The notes beneath the pieces are model-generated. The model was not told where the DNA came from, did not search any database, and was given only the letters and a program-made list of their open reading frames with translations. 59,141 nt of DNA. Source: Opitutales bacterium. GTDB taxonomy: Bacteria > Verrucomicrobiota > Verrucomicrobiia > Opitutales > T3Sed10-336. The position numbers and the translations under genes were made by a program. The first letter of the stretch is position 1. Each line of letters starts with the position of its first letter. The stretch is from NCBI GenBank assembly GCA_007130045.1, contig SLTG01000081.1:1-59141 (forward strand). Reading direction: 5' to 3'. Shown one piece after another: positions 45,328-52,661 of the stretch.

Positions 45328-47517
45328 TCAGTGCAATTGGAAGCCCTCGCCGTCGAATAGAACCACGCGACGATCTCCCGGGGAAAGTTCGAAGGTTTCC
45401 TCCCATTCGAACGGCCAGGCGTCCGGATCGGCGGTATCGTTGATCCGCACATGAACGCGGTACGTTCCTTCGGGTAGCTCCAGGTTCTCCAGCGCCGTAC
45501 TGGGTCCGTCGCGCCGGAGGCCGCGAGGACGGTACTCTCGCTCAAGAAGAACGTCCCCGTCAATGGACAGCCGCAATCGGACCGGCGCACGGCTCCCTCC
45601 CGAACCGGTCTCGGCGCGCATGTGTACGGGCAACCGTTCCAGTTCTTCATCGGTCAGCCGCCGCGCTTCCTCCAACGGTTCGCCCAAATGACTGAATGAA
45701 ACATACAGTTCGGGAGTTTGCGAGGGACCCCGGTACGGAGCATCGCTCGCCGCCCATGTCACAAACGCAGACAATCCCGCCAGCAAAACGCCGACCCCGA
45801 TCGCAACCAGGCGATTTCGCTTCGACGGGACGGTCTTCGCCATATTCTCCTTGAAAGCGGCGGCGGCACGACTCACCTCGTCCATCCGCATCCGATCGGT
45901 TCGCAAGAAGAGAACCCGGTTCCTGTCGGCCTTTCCCGGACGGAGAATCGGTTTGCGTTTGCCGTCAAGCCGCTGCTCCAGCCAGTCGGCGCCTTCACGG
46001 TACACGGCTTCGCCCGAACAACACCCGACGATCAATACGCCCGGCGCTCCCGCCTGAATAGCGTGCTCGATCAGGGCCGCGCTTACCCATCCCGCGCACG
46101 GGACCATCATCACACGGTAACCCGGCAATGCCGGCGATTCAAGAGTCACCGGATTCACTGCCAACACGTCGCCCCCGGATTGTCCGCAAACGTATGCAAG
46201 GAAGACCTCCTCTCCGTTCGCCTGTCTCCTCCGTATCCAATGATCAATAGACGCCTTCTCCTCGGCCACCGCAAGCCCTGGAAGCGCGATCGCATCCGAA
46301 TCACAGGCTCCGGTACAAATGCCGCACGATACGCATCGATTCGGATCGACCTGCGCCATCAGCTTCGGGCCTTTCCCTTCGCTATCCCGGGAGACCATGC
46401 GGATTGCATCGAACGGACAATCCTTCGAACACAGCGTGCAGCCCTGGCAGGTGTCGGAATTGACGCGTGCGGGCCCAATGATCGTTTCGCTGCGTTTGAC
46501 CATCATTCGGGGAACCGCGCACAACACAATCGTTCCGACAAAGAACAACGCCCAAAGCGCGCCTCCGCCGAACCGGTCGGTCAAGACGAGCGGCCAAAGA
46601 TACCACCAGTCCATCCCGAATCCATCGGGTTTAACGGCAAGGTCCGCCCGTCCGGCGCTCTCCGCCGGAACGACCAGCGACAATACAACCAGCGAAACAA
46701 GGATCCACCCGGTCAACCAATGTCCCGTAAACAGTTTCGGACGGCTTATCCGCGACAAGTGCAGCCACAGCATCACGACGATCCCCAGGGGGAGGAGCAT
46801 GTGGACGAAGAAAACAAGGAAGAAAAAGAGTGAAGGGACAAGCTCATTGGTCAGGAAGGACCGGGAGAGCGGATCCCCGAATATCGGCAGCACGTCGAAC
46901 AGCTTGGCGCTGCCCAGGGCGACCTGCTGTGCGCGCTCGTCCCATACCAGCCAATACCCCGTCCAGCCGATCACCCACAAAATCCCCACTATGAATATTC
47001 CCGTAATCCACGCGAGCGATCGGGCGCCGGTGAACTTGCGCGCAACGAACACCCGAACGACGTGCAGCAGAATGAAAAGCATGCACGCGTCGGAACTGTA
47101 CCGGTGCAAGGACCGCATGAGCTGTCCGAGGAAAGATCCCTCGCGAAGCGCTTCGAGAGAATCGTACGCCTTGTATACGCTCGGTGAATACCAAAAGAGC
47201 AGAACGACCCCCGTCGCCGCCGCGATCAGAAAACAGGTGTTGGCAATCGCCCCCGTCCGCGCCAGGGGATTCATGTGGTCCGGAATAAACCGGTCCAGAG
47301 CCCGGTCGAAACGGGCGAACCCCGATTCCATTCGGCGCAACACCGACTCCCCGCGAACGGCGGGACCGGCGTGAGCCGAAGCCGGCGCGGGACCTGGCAC
47401 GGGCGGTTTCGACGTTTCGCTCATCGCATTGTCACTTTCCGCCCGGGCCTCTTCCCGGGCGAACCGCGGGCCGCATGCGCTCGGTGCATCCTCAAGATCC
47501 GTGGAACCGCGGTTCAT
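45328..47517 (-). CDS. Cytochrome b / diferredoxin / MvhD-like fusion protein
   Basis: 729 residues. Residues 85-340 are a cytochrome b N-terminal domain with two His pairs each 14 apart (138/152 and 239/253) for two b hemes. Residues 357-367 and 395-405 are CxxCxxCxxxC clusters for two [4Fe-4S]. Residues 438-545 are MvhD-like, with cysteines in YVCGQSG, VPCAGW and GCCSGEA. One more helix (about 570-592) leads to a beta-rich periplasmic tail. ATG 47517 overlaps the SCO stop (ATGA), supporting this start; ATG 47424 is the alternative. It probably moves electrons between quinone, low-potential donors and the oxidase-like subunits. Confidence 0.85.
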   Translation of the reverse strand: MNRGSTDLEDAPSACGPRFAREEARAESDNAMSETSKPPVPGPAPASAHAGPAVRGESVLRRMESGFARFDRALDRFIPDHMNPLARTGAIANTCFLIAAATGVVLLFWYSPSVYKAYDSLEALREGSFLGQLMRSLHRYSSDACMLFILLHVVRVFVARKFTGARSLAWITGIFIVGILWVIGWTGYWLVWDERAQQVALGSAKLFDVLPIFGDPLSRSFLTNELVPSLFFFLVFFVHMLLPLGIVVMLWLHLSRISRPKLFTGHWLTGWILVSLVVLSLVVPAESAGRADLAVKPDGFGMDWWYLWPLVLTDRFGGGALWALFFVGTIVLCAVPRMMVKRSETIIGPARVNSDTCQGCTLCSKDCPFDAIRMVSRDSEGKGPKLMAQVDPNRCVSCGICTGACDSDAIALPGLAVAEEKASIDHWIRRRQANGEEVFLAYVCGQSGGDVLAVNPVTLESPALPGYRVMMVPCAGWVSAALIEHAIQAGAPGVLIVGCCSGEAVYREGADWLEQRLDGKRKPILRPGKADRNRVLFLRTDRMRMDEVSRAAAAFKENMAKTVPSKRNRLVAIGVGVLLAGLSAFVTWAASDAPYRGPSQTPELYVSFSHLGEPLEEARRLTDEELERLPVHMRAETGSGGSRAPVRLRLSIDGDVLLEREYRPRGLRRDGPSTALENLELPEGTYRVHVRINDTADPDAWPFEWEETFELSPGDRRVVLFDGEGFQLH

Positions 47518-48479
47518 TCCGGCGCGCGCGCCACTTCGCTCCCCGCCACGCGTTCTTCAGCAAGGAGGCGCAACGCTTCAATCAGCCAGCTTTCGTGCCG
47601 CTGGCTCAGATTGAAACGATAGGCTATTGTCCCGGAACGGTCGATCAGGAAGAATAGGTTGGCATGATCGATTTCACCGGTTTTTTCATTCGGCAGTCTC
47701 GCCACCTGAAGGCGGTCGAGCACCCGATTGACTTCGTCGGGCTCGCCGTTAAGGAAATGAAACTGCGGCGTGCTCATTCCATACGCCTCGGCGGCACGGG
47801 CCATCTTCTCCATAGAATCCCCTTCCGGGTCGAGCGAAACCGCGAGAATCGTAATCTCGTCACGGAGCTCTTCCGGCAGAGTTTCGATGCTCCGCCGCGC
47901 CTGCAATGCAATCATTGGGCACGCGGTCGGACAGGTGGCGTAAATCGCCGTCAGAAGCACGACGCTCCCCCGGTAATCGGAAAGGGCAACCGCCTCACCG
48001 TCCTGATTCTTCAGCGTGAACTCCGGCGGCACGAGTTCGGTGCGGATTCTCTCCGCCGGAAACGGGGTCGCCTCGGTTACCGGTGACTCAAAGGTCAAAG
48101 CGAGCAGCCCGCCGCCCAAAAACACCGCCGAAGACAACCCCGCGGCCCCAGGCGTGACAAAGCCCGCCTTTCGATCAACCCACATCTCCGCCAGCGGCGC
48201 CCGCCAGAACCACAGGGCAATTCCAAGCAGGAGCAGCGGCTGGGTAAGCATTATCCAAACCCAGCTCCACTTCATCGTTCCGCCGTCGGGATCGTATCCA
48301 AAACACCAGATACGGAAATCCGTTGCGAAATTTCCCAACGCCCCCTCGCTTGACGGCCAAAAGACGGCTGCGGCAAGAAAACCCAGGTAAAGAAGCGTCG
48401 CGGACACCAGGAAGACCGGAAATCCCGCGCCTCCGAAGAAACGGCACACCCAATCGATTACATTTTCAGTCCGTTTCAT
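47514..48479 (-). CDS. SCO1/SenC copper chaperone with N-terminal membrane helices
   Basis: 321 residues. Three hydrophobic segments (about 20-40, 70-92 and 110-130) precede a thioredoxin-fold SCO domain with the copper ligands CPTACP and the later His in IDHANLFFL. SCO proteins load CuA in subunit II. The gene follows subunit I, starting 119 bases after its stop, as in SenC-linked heme-copper clusters, with AAGGAACTGAGCT before its ATG. The added membrane helices are longer than in most SCO proteins. Confidence 0.88.
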   Translation of the reverse strand: MKRTENVIDWVCRFFGGAGFPVFLVSATLLYLGFLAAAVFWPSSEGALGNFATDFRIWCFGYDPDGGTMKWSWVWIMLTQPLLLLGIALWFWRAPLAEMWVDRKAGFVTPGAAGLSSAVFLGGGLLALTFESPVTEATPFPAERIRTELVPPEFTLKNQDGEAVALSDYRGSVVLLTAIYATCPTACPMIALQARRSIETLPEELRDEITILAVSLDPEGDSMEKMARAAEAYGMSTPQFHFLNGEPDEVNRVLDRLQVARLPNEKTGEIDHANLFFLIDRSGTIAYRFNLSQRHESWLIEALRLLAEERVAGSEVARAPE

Positions 48480-48598
48480 AGCTCAGTTCCTTCGTTCTTG
48501 CAGGACGTCGCCTTGCTTGATCCCTTCCAGGTTCGATTTTGAATGAAATCGTGGATTTGGACTCCTAACTTTTAACTTTTCCCTTTTAACCTTTAAAC

Positions 48599-50386
48599 TC
48601 ATCTCACCGGCCAGACATCGGCCAGGGCGGTCCAGTTCGCGAAGTAGTACACAGCGAACGCGATAAGGAAGATGCCCACCAAAATCACCGTTCCCGGCGT
48701 CTTGTGTTCCTCTTCACCGCCGCTCGAAGGCGTATCGTGACGTCCCAGGTCAACCGGTTTGCCCCAGCATTCCATCGGACGCCCGGCGTTCGATTTGCCG
48801 ATCAGCAACGTGCCGACGGTCAGAAGTACGAAGAGGAGCAACCCGAGAAACGCAAGCACGCCTCCGACTCCCAGCATTCCGAGAAATACGTGAACGGCGG
48901 CCCCATAAGCCTCGGCGGCCGGTTCGATGTCCGAGGTGCGCCGGGCGACGCCCATCGATCCGGCAAACGATTTGCCGACCGACATCAGCGTGATCCCCCC
49001 TGCGAAGAGCCATGGCTGAATTCGTGCCAGCCGTTTCAAGATATAGTCCTTCCGGAACAACAACGGCACCACGTAGTAGGTAAGCCCCATGAAGGCAAGC
49101 GTCGTTCCGCCGACGACCGTCGCGTGGAAGTGTCCGGGGATCCGCAGGGTGTTGTGCGCGATAATGTTGATCTGCTGAGTGCCGAGCGTCACACCGGTGA
49201 TTCCCCCAATGAAGCCGAAGATCACCACCGAGAGGACAATCGCCGAAAACGCCGGATTGCGCCAGGGCGCGGCGGTCAGCCAACCGAAAATGCCCTTGAT
49301 GTGACCGTTCCTTCTCATGGCCACCTCGACCGAAGCCGGAACAGTGAATCCGTGTATCATCGAGGCCAGTACGGCAAGGTACATTGCGTAGGAGGTGTTC
49401 CAGATCTTCCAGGTCGCGCCGACGCCCGGGTCAACGAGAAGGTGGTGCGCCGAAGCAATGTTGATGAACAGGATGTACAGGACAAAGGCCCCCCGGCAGA
49501 CCGTTTCATTCAACGGCTTCGCGCCGGTTGTCAGCGTCGCTACCATGTACCATATTGCCACCATCGCCGCGACATTGACCTGCTGCGACTGGTGACCGAG
49601 CCCCCACCAGATCATCCGGTACCACATCGGGTCCGGCTGGCCGACCCATCCCATGGAGTACATGAAAGTGGGGATCATCACGATCGCGCCGTGCAAGAGG
49701 GCCACAACCGCAATGATCGCAGCCGCGGTGGCGCCGAAAGTCACAAGCGGCACCGACCCGATGTAGGTTCTGTACCTGCGCGCCATGTAAAGGGTGGCAA
49801 AGAAGTTGAATACCCCGACCAGAGTTCCCACGGCCACCAGAATAATCCCCAGGTAAAAGGCCGGGTGGGCGAGAAGAGGAAGGTACGACGTCAAAAGGAC
49901 GTCCGCCTGACCCTGGAAAATCACGGTGTTCACCATGCCCGCGCCGACCGCCATCATTCCAAACGAGACCCAAGCCACTTTTCGCGAAAACAACTTCGCG
50001 TTAAGCAACGTCGTACAGGCGAAATACAGGACCGCAATCTCGAAGAACAGTATCCAGAATATCAACATGTTCAGCCCGTGAAGGGTAAGCATGCGGTAAA
50101 ACCAGTCGCTTGGGAGCAGGTTTACGGTCTCCCACCGGGTCAACGCCAGGAGAATGGCCGCGATGCCGCCGATCAGCAGAAAGATCACCGCGAAAACCGC
50201 ATTGATCCGTATAAAAAATTGCGCGTCCAGGCAAACCGGAAGGCCCGTCGAATCGCACTTGCGCCAGCCGCTCGCCAGCGTTCGCAGGCTCCAGCGATTG
50301 GAGCTCTCGGTTGTATCCGCGCCTAGCGTACATTCACGAACGTCGCTTGCCACGTCGCTCATCTCATTTTCCGCTTCAGATTTCAT
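48599..50386 (-). CDS. Heme-copper oxidoreductase subunit I lacking the active-site tyrosine
   Basis: 595 residues, about 12 helices. All six canonical histidines are present: low-spin heme H103 (LHGLNMLIFW) and H421, high-spin heme H419 (PGHFHATVVGG), CuB H265, H314 and H315 (SAHHLLVDPG). The cross-linked Tyr of HPEVY is replaced by Gln269 (GLGHQSQQVN), and the cbb3-type helix-VII position holds Glu by spacing. Loss of this Tyr is a hallmark of nitric oxide reductases among heme-copper enzymes, so NO reduction is more likely than O2 reduction. AAGGAG lies before ATG 50386. Confidence 0.85.
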   Translation of the reverse strand: MKSEAENEMSDVASDVRECTLGADTTESSNRWSLRTLASGWRKCDSTGLPVCLDAQFFIRINAVFAVIFLLIGGIAAILLALTRWETVNLLPSDWFYRMLTLHGLNMLIFWILFFEIAVLYFACTTLLNAKLFSRKVAWVSFGMMAVGAGMVNTVIFQGQADVLLTSYLPLLAHPAFYLGIILVAVGTLVGVFNFFATLYMARRYRTYIGSVPLVTFGATAAAIIAVVALLHGAIVMIPTFMYSMGWVGQPDPMWYRMIWWGLGHQSQQVNVAAMVAIWYMVATLTTGAKPLNETVCRGAFVLYILFINIASAHHLLVDPGVGATWKIWNTSYAMYLAVLASMIHGFTVPASVEVAMRRNGHIKGIFGWLTAAPWRNPAFSAIVLSVVIFGFIGGITGVTLGTQQINIIAHNTLRIPGHFHATVVGGTTLAFMGLTYYVVPLLFRKDYILKRLARIQPWLFAGGITLMSVGKSFAGSMGVARRTSDIEPAAEAYGAAVHVFLGMLGVGGVLAFLGLLLFVLLTVGTLLIGKSNAGRPMECWGKPVDLGRHDTPSSGGEEEHKTPGTVILVGIFLIAFAVYYFANWTALADVWPVR

Positions 50387-50398
50387 AACAAATTCTCC

Positions 50399-50923
50399 TT
50401 ACTCCACAATAAGTTTGCCGACCATCAGCGAGTGACCGATTCCGCAGAACTCGTTGCACACGATCGTGTACTCTCCTGCCGAGGTCGGTGTGATTGTCAG
50501 GACGTGGTCGTATCCTGGAAGGACCTGGAAGTTCATGTTCATCGGCAGCAGCGAAATGCCGTGCTGCAGGTCCAGCGACGAAATGTGCAAACGGTAGGTT
50601 TCTCCGGCTCGGAGCTTCAGCACGGGATACCAGCTCCACATTCTGGCGAGCAGGTACGCCTCGCCGCCGGGAGCCGGCTCGACTACTGGAACTCCGTCCA
50701 GTTCGCCGACCTGATTGGCTTCGACAAATTGATTGACCCGTTCTTCAAACTGACGGGGCTCCACCTTGTAGGCTTCTCCCGTACTGTTCTGCTTTCCAAA
50801 CAAGTGCCAGTACGGCATCATGAGAAACATGACGAGGCACCACGCGAGGGCGATGCCTATCCAAACGCGCTCGGTGCCTTTCGGCGATTTAAACCAGTCT
50901 TTTTCCGGTGATTCCAAACTCAT
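50399..50923 (-). CDS. Heme-copper oxidoreductase subunit II with CuA site
   Basis: 174 residues. One N-terminal helix (about 20-38) precedes a cupredoxin domain. The CuA ligands are complete: H121 (DLQHGISL), C156, E158, C160, H164 and M167 (CNEFCGIGHSLM). CuA takes electrons from a soluble cytochrome c or cupredoxin. The shortness resembles subunit II of ba3-like and NOR-like enzymes. TAAGGAG precedes ATG 50923, partly from the stop of the 53-residue gene upstream. Confidence 0.9.
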   Translation of the reverse strand: MSLESPEKDWFKSPKGTERVWIGIALAWCLVMFLMMPYWHLFGKQNSTGEAYKVEPRQFEERVNQFVEANQVGELDGVPVVEPAPGGEAYLLARMWSWYPVLKLRAGETYRLHISSLDLQHGISLLPMNMNFQVLPGYDHVLTITPTSAGEYTIVCNEFCGIGHSLMVGKLIVE

Positions 50924-50936
50924 GGCTTTGTTCTCC

Positions 50937-51098
50937 TTATGGCAGCGGCGCGGGCGGCACCCTTAAGAGTTCGATCCATCCCCACAACGTGTAGGACAGC
51001 AACGGAATGACGACTCCGAGGACCAGCAACGCCCAAGGGTTGTCCATCAACCGTTGAAGGATGTGTGTTTTTTCTTGTTCGTTCATAGCTTTTTCCAT
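50937..51098 (-). CDS. Small single-helix membrane protein of the oxidase operon
   Basis: 53 residues (MEKAMNEQEKTHILQRLMDN...LRVPPAPLP). A helix of about 22 hydrophobic residues, PWALLVLGVVIPLLSYTLWG, follows a charged N-terminus. The gene fits in the gap exactly: 8 bp after the second subunit-I-like gene, and 13 bp before the CuA gene, whose AGGAG overlaps its TAA stop. Start ATG 51098; ATG 51086 is possible. It likely is a structural subunit like CcoQ/CtaF. It was too short for ordinary gene listings. Confidence 0.8.
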   Translation of the reverse strand: MEKAMNEQEKTHILQRLMDNPWALLVLGVVIPLLSYTLWGWIELLRVPPAPLP

Positions 51099-51106
51099 TG
51101 TGCGAG

Positions 51107-52609
51107 TTACAAATCTGCGTTCGCTTGCGTCGTGCGCGCACCGCGATCCCTTCCGAGGTAAGCCGCTCCGATCAAAGCGAGGAAAAGCACCCCCCCGGCA
51201 ACGGCGACAAGCCCCCCGATCCCCATCATGGCGATACCTGCGTACTCACCGCCCGAATACAATTCCTGCTCGGCGCCGTACACCTTCCGGTCTAGGCCGA
51301 ACGCCCCGCCGACGGCAAAACCGAGCGCAAACAGAAGCTGCCCTCCTCCGAAGAGCAAAAGCTGCCACGGCGCCCAGCGCCCGACCATGGCGACGCACCC
51401 GGCTTTTCCATGGCGTTCGGCCATCATAAACGCCGCGGCCATGAACGCCACGGTGACGGCGCCGATCGACGCGTGGTAGTGGGCGGGTATCATCGTTGTG
51501 GAACCGCGTATCATCGCCCCAAGGGCAAAGCCGACCACCGTCATCAAGATGCTGAGCCCCAATCCAACGGTTCGAAAATCGCGCCAGAAGGCCGCCGGAA
51601 GCCGCTTCTCCCGGCGAGCGGCGGCCAGCCTCAGGCCACAGAGAAGGATGAAAACGGTAACCACGGGAAATATCCCGAACTGCATGAGCCGGGTGAACCC
51701 GGTGTGATAAAGCGGGGTAACGGTCCCCTGGATTGTGAGCAACGGTCCGGCGAGGTGCGGAAGCACAAGAAGGCCGAACAGGACTCCCGCCGTGCGCGGG
51801 GCGGTCACCCGCCTCTTAACCAATGCGCCGGCAAGGATCAGCCAAACCGCTACCATTGCCGCAACGTTCGCGACCTGCAAAACGTGCCCGCCGCCCCAGG
51901 CAACGAATTCGTAGTACGCGGCAGGCTCAAGATCGCCCGGCGTGGCCGCCCATGAGGCGACGAAGGTGGACACCGCCGCCAAAAAGGCGAGTGCGGCGGC
52001 ACGAACTCCGGCAGCGGCGTCGGCAGGAAGCGCGTCCGTCGCGGACACCGGTTCCGTCCCCGACGCACTCCCGGCACGCCGCACGATCGGGCCGCCGAGA
52101 TAAAAAGACGTCAAACCCGCAAAAAACACGATCAGGCCGACGGAAAAAAGAGGATGATCGATGAAGGGGATGTAATTCGAAAGCACCGGGTCGCTTCCCG
52201 GAATGAAGGCGGACAATGCCATCATTGCCGTGCCGGACGCGGCCAATGAAAAACCCGCTGCCTGGAACGCCGTGCTGCGCGCTCCGGGAAGCTGCGCAAA
52301 CAGGGATGCGGCGAACGCACTGAACCATACGAGCAGCGACAGGTTCACATGACTCACAAGGCAGCGGCGAAAGAAGTCCGGGTCGCTGATCCAGTGGGAG
52401 AAAGGCGGAACCCGCCCCACCACAAGCAATAACGCAAAAAGTCCGGACACCAGAAGGCTGCCGACTGCGAGGTACATCCAGGCATGAGTGCCCCGGAACG
52501 CGAAACGCTCCTTCAGTCCCCACGTGTCGGGAACGGAGATCCGCAACGGCTCCGCATCGAACCCGTATGGCGTCTCCGCCGGCCTGAAATCTGCCTGCAC
52601 CAATTTCAT
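51107..52609 (-). CDS. Heme-copper oxidase-like membrane protein with incomplete CuB site
   Basis: 500 residues, about 12 helices. It shares the block H-x-x-Q-x-x-NVAAMVA (H242, Q245, N248) with subunit I (H265, Q268, N271), so the two are paralogues. The low-spin heme His is H87 (RCLVSHVNLSLL), and the HxH pair is H377/H379 (IPAHYHASIG). Helix VII has only H285 (LPHLAGP) where two CuB histidines are expected, and there is no Tyr at H242+4 (Val246). It may be a heme-only electron-transfer subunit, or a divergent catalytic one. First gene of the operon, behind the FNR box. Confidence 0.82.
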   Translation of the reverse strand: MKLVQADFRPAETPYGFDAEPLRISVPDTWGLKERFAFRGTHAWMYLAVGSLLVSGLFALLLVVGRVPPFSHWISDPDFFRRCLVSHVNLSLLVWFSAFAASLFAQLPGARSTAFQAAGFSLAASGTAMMALSAFIPGSDPVLSNYIPFIDHPLFSVGLIVFFAGLTSFYLGGPIVRRAGSASGTEPVSATDALPADAAAGVRAAALAFLAAVSTFVASWAATPGDLEPAAYYEFVAWGGGHVLQVANVAAMVAVWLILAGALVKRRVTAPRTAGVLFGLLVLPHLAGPLLTIQGTVTPLYHTGFTRLMQFGIFPVVTVFILLCGLRLAAARREKRLPAAFWRDFRTVGLGLSILMTVVGFALGAMIRGSTTMIPAHYHASIGAVTVAFMAAAFMMAERHGKAGCVAMVGRWAPWQLLLFGGGQLLFALGFAVGGAFGLDRKVYGAEQELYSGGEYAGIAMMGIGGLVAVAGGVLFLALIGAAYLGRDRGARTTQANADL

Positions 52610-52620
52610 CGATGCGGGGG

Positions 52621-52661
52621 AGTATAGCCCGTTCCCGATCGAGAAAATTGATTCAGATCAA
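52621..52661 (-). promoter_or_regulatory. FNR/NNR-type operator and -10 box of the respiratory operon
   Basis: TTGATTCAGATCAA (plus 52648-52661) is a perfect TTGAT-N4-ATCAA CRP/FNR-family site. A TATACT -10 box on the minus strand (52626-52621) predicts transcription start near 52614, which puts the site centre about 40.5-41.5 bp upstream, the class II activator position. The start ATG follows 5 bases later, so the leader is almost absent. It should respond to low oxygen or NO. Confidence 0.75.

Follow-up and report, generated by a model that had tools for sequence, protein, structure and literature searches.

A putative eNOR-type nitric oxide reductase operon of Verrucomicrobiota whose first gene encodes a probable CuB-less heme-copper paralogue

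The eNOR family of nitric oxide reductases reportedly goes back to Hemp and Gennis (2008), and the Rhodothermus marinus enzyme is said to be the subject of Murali et al. (2024). The core of this family resembles the locus described here in that Gln replaces the active-site Tyr, the ligands of CuB and the hemes are all present, a gene for a CuA-containing subunit II lies directly upstream and the ancestry is that of the B family, whereas the core here lies in a conserved six-gene block together with a CuB-less heme-copper paralogue (HCO2) and a cytochrome b/2[4Fe-4S]/FlpD fusion. The sNOR of ammonia oxidisers (norSY-senC) likewise has a two-subunit NOR-like pair followed by SCO/SenC, but it carries Asn at the Tyr position instead of Gln, and the cytochrome b and HCO2 genes are extra in the present locus. 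The ba3-type oxygen reductases (e.g., Thermus 1EHK) share the fold, the IIa-II-I gene order and CuA with the present enzyme (29% identity in the structure alignment), whereas they retain the active-site Tyr. Genes encoding eNOR mostly carry annotations as oxygen-reducing cytochrome oxidases, and N2O-producing capacity in soils, sediments and soda lakes is overlooked as a result. The residue at the Tyr position is Tyr in the oxygen reductases, Glu in cNOR and qNOR, Asn in sNOR and CuANor, Asp in gNOR and Gln in eNOR (PMC8756737).

The window, the whole stretch of 59,141 nucleotides that was analysed, contains six consecutive genes, all on the minus strand, and the gene content proposed in an earlier note on this DNA was borne out by Pfam matches and motifs. 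The source genome is that of a soda-lake-type member of the Verrucomicrobiota. The first gene (51107..52609) encodes HCO2, a heme-copper-fold paralogue of 500 aa that keeps His87, His242, His377 and His379 and is without the CuB His-His pair. The third and fourth genes (50399..50923 and 48599..50386) encode subunit II with a CuA site (partial match to TIGR02866, conserved CuA ligands) and an eNOR-type subunit I (PF00115, 227 bits), respectively. The fifth gene (47514..48479) encodes an SCO/SenC copper chaperone with a membrane region at its N-terminus (PF02630, 78 bits), and the sixth (45328..47517) encodes the cytochrome b/2[4Fe-4S]/FlpD fusion, with Pfam matches to Cytochrome_B, two Fer4 and FlpD. 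The second gene (50937..51098) encodes a 53-aa protein with a single TM helix, placed by its gene position as the counterpart of subunit IIa of B-family oxidases; cbaD/IIa occupies the same position (PMC3128077). The intergenic gaps from the first to the last gene are 8, 13, 12, 119 and -4 bp. We infer that the operon very probably encodes a respiratory eNOR-type nitric oxide reductase, an enzyme built like the oxidases of oxygen respiration that most likely converts nitric oxide, which is toxic, to nitrous oxide, a greenhouse gas.

An FNR/DNR-type palindrome, TTGATCTGAATCAA (52648..52661, minus strand), is located 39 bp ahead of the start codon of the first gene, and the TTGATNNNNATCAA box has its one perfect match in the window at this distance from HCO2. 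Boxes with 0-1 mismatch were found upstream of the operon in 27 of 89 relatives (window counted), compared with 2.7% of random 400-bp stretches. A -10-like TATACT is present at 52621-52626, and the box, with its centre near -41, appears to be in a class II arrangement. A scan for sigma-70 promoters gave no relevant match; an activator-dependent promoter would be expected to behave in this way.

Subunit I carries the full set of six metal-ligand histidines that the earlier note had reported; a residue check identified them as His103, His265, His314, His315, His419 and His421, and the Gln that the note had placed four residues after His265 is Gln269, read directly as a CAG codon (49580..49582, minus strand). 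His265, Gln269 and Asn271 are invariant in 94/94 subunit I homologues, and the H-x-x-Q-Q-x-N motif does not vary among these 94 relatives. The motif reads GHQSQQVN in the window and GHxxQQ[VI]N in plasmid homologues of Defluviimonas, Thermus and Thermomicrobium, compared with GHxxVYFW in the B family, where all 8 references have Tyr at His+4. The Glu found at this position in cNOR and qNOR is replaced by Gln269, and the Asn of sNOR is found in none of the 94 sequences. Since the literature gives Gln at the Tyr position as the mark of eNOR, the enzyme is placed nearest to eNOR and not to norSY-senC, which the earlier note had brought in through the SCO gene; sNOR as a candidate based on that link was ruled out. 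The assignment to eNOR also agrees with the six ligand histidines, the CuA subunit II gene directly upstream, the B-family derivation seen in ba3 as the nearest PDB relative, and the separation from O2-reducing B-family enzymes. In a maximum-likelihood tree, which took a 32-sequence subset of the Q-type subunit I and contained no sNOR, gNOR, bNOR or characterised eNOR sequence, the Q-type sequences group together in a single clade (95/89), apart from a second clade made up of the Tyr-type B-family sequences (100/99). The tree placement that had been set as a check thus puts subunit I outside the O2-reducing clade.

A Tyr supplied by another helix was also looked for, and neither known cross-link position has one, the residues being Gln269 (A and B families) and Ile308 (C family, HH-6; invariant in 47 aligned sequences). 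Tyr304, conserved in 94/94 sequences, lies by sequence position about one helical turn beyond the C-family position on helix VII, and this candidate was provisionally rejected. The eNOR-specific invariant residues include Glu116, Tyr304 and His345. Among the putative residues of the single proton channel expected of an eNOR, Tyr280, Ser342 and Thr348 are conserved, and His345 is the invariant equivalent of Thr312 in the K-like channel of the Thermus ba3 enzyme. The ba3-type enzymes further differ in Tyr244, which is Val276 here, and in a helix VII Phe, which is Tyr304 here. A PDB search found ba3-type B-family oxidases as the closest solved structures, and the AlphaFold model of subunit I (pLDDT 82.5) superposes on heme-copper oxidases with Z of about 38-40. 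The last TM helix of subunit I, fused in the window, is a separate small open reading frame in many Myxococcota and Planctomycetota (loci L080, L082, L084, L099, L101, L104-L106, L108, L113 and L116).

The CuA motif of subunit II is complete (H121; C156-NEF-C160-GIG-H164-SL-M167), and H121, C156, E158, C160, H164 and M167 are kept in 98-100% of 92 subunit II sequences; the COX2/cupredoxin Pfam match of the protein is weak. The SCO protein keeps C183xxxC187 and H272, these three residues being invariant in 75-76 relatives. In the proposed mechanism, a cupredoxin or cytochrome c of the periplasm would deliver electrons to subunit II at its CuA site. Subunit I would hold a low-spin heme on His103/His421 and a site composed of a high-spin heme (His419) and CuB (His265/314/315), which, with Gln269 in place of the redox-active Tyr, would reduce 2 NO to N2O rather than split O2. 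SCO would load copper, and the 53-aa protein would serve as a IIa-like helix. With less certainty, HCO2 and the cytochrome b/FeS/FlpD protein may be membrane electron-transfer partners that feed or support the enzyme.

Several genes related to NO metabolism are found near the operon in relatives. Within 9 kb at 103 loci, CtaB was found 37 times, Rrf2 27 times, nirK 15 times, ric 13 times, nirS 6 times and a nirK-like gene 4 times; the identities of nirS, Rrf2, ric and CtaB were verified by domains. In a 289-genome sample of the phylum, NirK above the curated cut-off was present in 5/5 module-bearing Verrucomicrobiota (window genome excluded) compared with 13/283 without the module, a difference with p of about 5e-7 that is uncorrected for relatedness and rests on phylogenetically non-independent counts. 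The background genomes of this comparison were screened with HCO2 as the query, a search that could miss eNORs lacking HCO2. NirK is encoded in 26 of 50 module-bearing genomes. The window genome itself yielded no NirS and no standard NirK, only a divergent nirK-like multicopper protein (contig C92, L135:886-2850) with a C-terminal cupredoxin domain, an adjoining azurin-like gene and, 38 bp upstream, an FNR-type box that is almost perfect. Aligned by eye, this protein is without two residues (Asp98, His255) that we take to be catalytic. Its homologues are found beside eNOR in L033, L070, L044 and L046. The five PF00115 matches of the window genome include distinct oxidases of the A and C types, and none besides the present subunit I is NOR-like. 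A CcoN-like COX1-family protein on contig C1 (L005), in which several heme/CuB ligand histidines are changed to Tyr or Gln, is a degenerate C-family paralogue. The soda-lake isolate Verruconatronum alginivorum (Verrucomicrobiota), which possesses NirK and whose NO reductase is an eNor homologue, converts nitrite to N2O, and its yield is doubled with nitrite (PMC13274419).

The view of the earlier note that the complex reduces NO rather than O2 is supported by the separate clade, the absence of Tyr from the known positions, the nirK/nirS/ric/Rrf2 neighbours, the co-occurrence with NirK and the FNR/DNR-type box. A B-family oxygen reductase that works without a cross-linked Tyr, for example in high-affinity oxygen scavenging, with the NO genes as incidental neighbours, would fit the B-family fold with ba3 as the nearest solved relative, the CuA, SCO and CtaB genes that are typical of oxidases too, and the annotation of such genes as oxidases in public records. 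This explanation is nevertheless very improbable given the Gln invariant in 94 sequences of a separate clade, the NO-related neighbours and FNR-type box, and the other oxidases of the genome. Within the eNOR reading, the enzyme might serve detoxification only, uncoupled from growth and proton pumping; the nearby Rrf2 and ric (YtfE-like) genes are suggestive of NO stress, and the window genome is without standard NirK/NirS. We regard this variant as unlikely, as nirK/nirS are co-located with the operon in relatives, V. alginivorum gains yield from nitrite (PMC13274419), and the channel-like residues Tyr280, Ser342, His345 and Thr348 are conserved. Points against the eNOR reading itself are the lack of a standard NirK or NirS in the window genome and the presence of FlpD and cytochrome b domains, which are not usual in an enzyme fed through CuA and would allow more than one electron route.

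A scan of named genomes yielded 80 relatives, of which 51 had enough flanking sequence for gene-order counts. The IIa-like gene and subunit II were present in all 51 of these, the former directly upstream of the latter in 51/51, and SCO, the cytochrome b gene and HCO2 were present in 50, 50 and 42, respectively. The six-gene order was identical in 37; with 42 of 51 loci carrying the HCO-like gene, this shows that the feature is not due to chance. Loci bearing HCO2 belong to Verrucomicrobiota, Myxococcota, Spirochaetota, Balneolota, Calditrichota, Planctomycetota, Nitrospirota, Bdellovibrionota and Rokubacteria, and the pairing of eNOR with HCO2 thus extends over at least nine bacterial phyla. 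The conserved module is a simple genomic marker. The eNOR-like plasmid operons of Thermus, Thermomicrobium and Defluviimonas share the Q-type motif with the window, and that of Defluviimonas also contains SCO and a cytochrome b/FeS/FlpD gene, but these operons are without HCO2, which was found on no plasmid. The Thermus thermophilus plasmids (L044, L046) have Lys at the position of the low-spin heme ligand His421 of the window, which would be an unusual axial ligand if real.

The new part of the finding is the first gene, HCO2. The window protein alone had no match in Pfam, NCBIfam or PDB sequence searches, while in a Pfam scan 31 of 53 family members matched PF00115 (best 7.1e-18) and none matched NnrS, so that an NnrS-type protein was rejected. 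The family profile matches ba3 oxidase at 1.7e-10 with the heme-ligand His columns aligned, and the AF2 model (pLDDT 90.1) gives Z of 28-30 to heme-copper oxidases. The superfamily fold is recognizable from its 12 helices, of which II and X carry the ligands of the low-spin heme, and His87, His242, His377 and His379 are invariant in 67/67 sequences. The three CuB histidines of a catalytic heme-copper oxidase are not all present: in members aligned to subunit I and ba3, the His-His pair of helix VII is replaced and only the helix-VI His is kept. HCO2 therefore cannot be a normal catalytic subunit. Because the heme-ligand histidines are kept without the copper site, it is tentatively read as a two-heme protein, a CuB-less member of the fold that probably has one site for a low-spin heme and another for a second heme. 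HCO2 sequences form their own clade with long branches in the maximum-likelihood tree. No relevant paper on CuB-less heme-copper paralogues turned up in the collection of literature searched, although such work may well exist elsewhere.

HCO2 is not essential to the enzyme, since it is absent from 9 of the 51 loci and occurs without eNOR subunits in some Balneolales genomes (L156:5745-7268, L157:6138-7556, L158:6869-8275). This separability would also suit an assembly factor or an NO/O2-binding sensor built on the heme-copper fold instead of a redox partner, and the one remaining CuB-type His (His242, 67/67), together with a heme whose face is open, would be compatible with the binding of a ligand. 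We give such a role a probability somewhat short of even; against it, HCO2 is the first gene of a structural operon bearing an FNR box in most lineages, and its low-spin heme site is fully conserved. A bolder proposal, which we hold only tentatively and consider improbable as a whole, is that HCO2 represents a superfamily branch not described before, in which CuB was lost and the protein turned into a two-heme subunit for membrane electron transfer (or NO handling). In a supercomplex with the cytochrome b/2[4Fe-4S]/FlpD protein, it would pass electrons to eNOR straight from quinol or from low-potential carriers of the cytoplasm, so that complex III is not needed. HCO2 would offer a good opportunity to learn what the heme-copper fold can do once the copper site is gone.

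In the fusion protein of the sixth gene, the N-terminal half of a cytochrome b (H138/H152, H239/H253) is combined with two [4Fe-4S] motifs, an FlpD/MvhD part, a TM helix and a C-terminal domain that is probably periplasmic. The four heme histidines (two H-x13-H pairs) and eight cysteines are invariant in 82/82 relatives, and the FlpD cysteines are mostly kept. This partner raises the question of whether NO reduction can use electrons other than those of complex III. In Defluviimonas and Gemmatimonadota, the cytochrome b/FeS/FlpD part is encoded without the C-terminal domain. The pair His632-Met633 of this domain (45619-45624) is 97-99% conserved and is a possible metal site.
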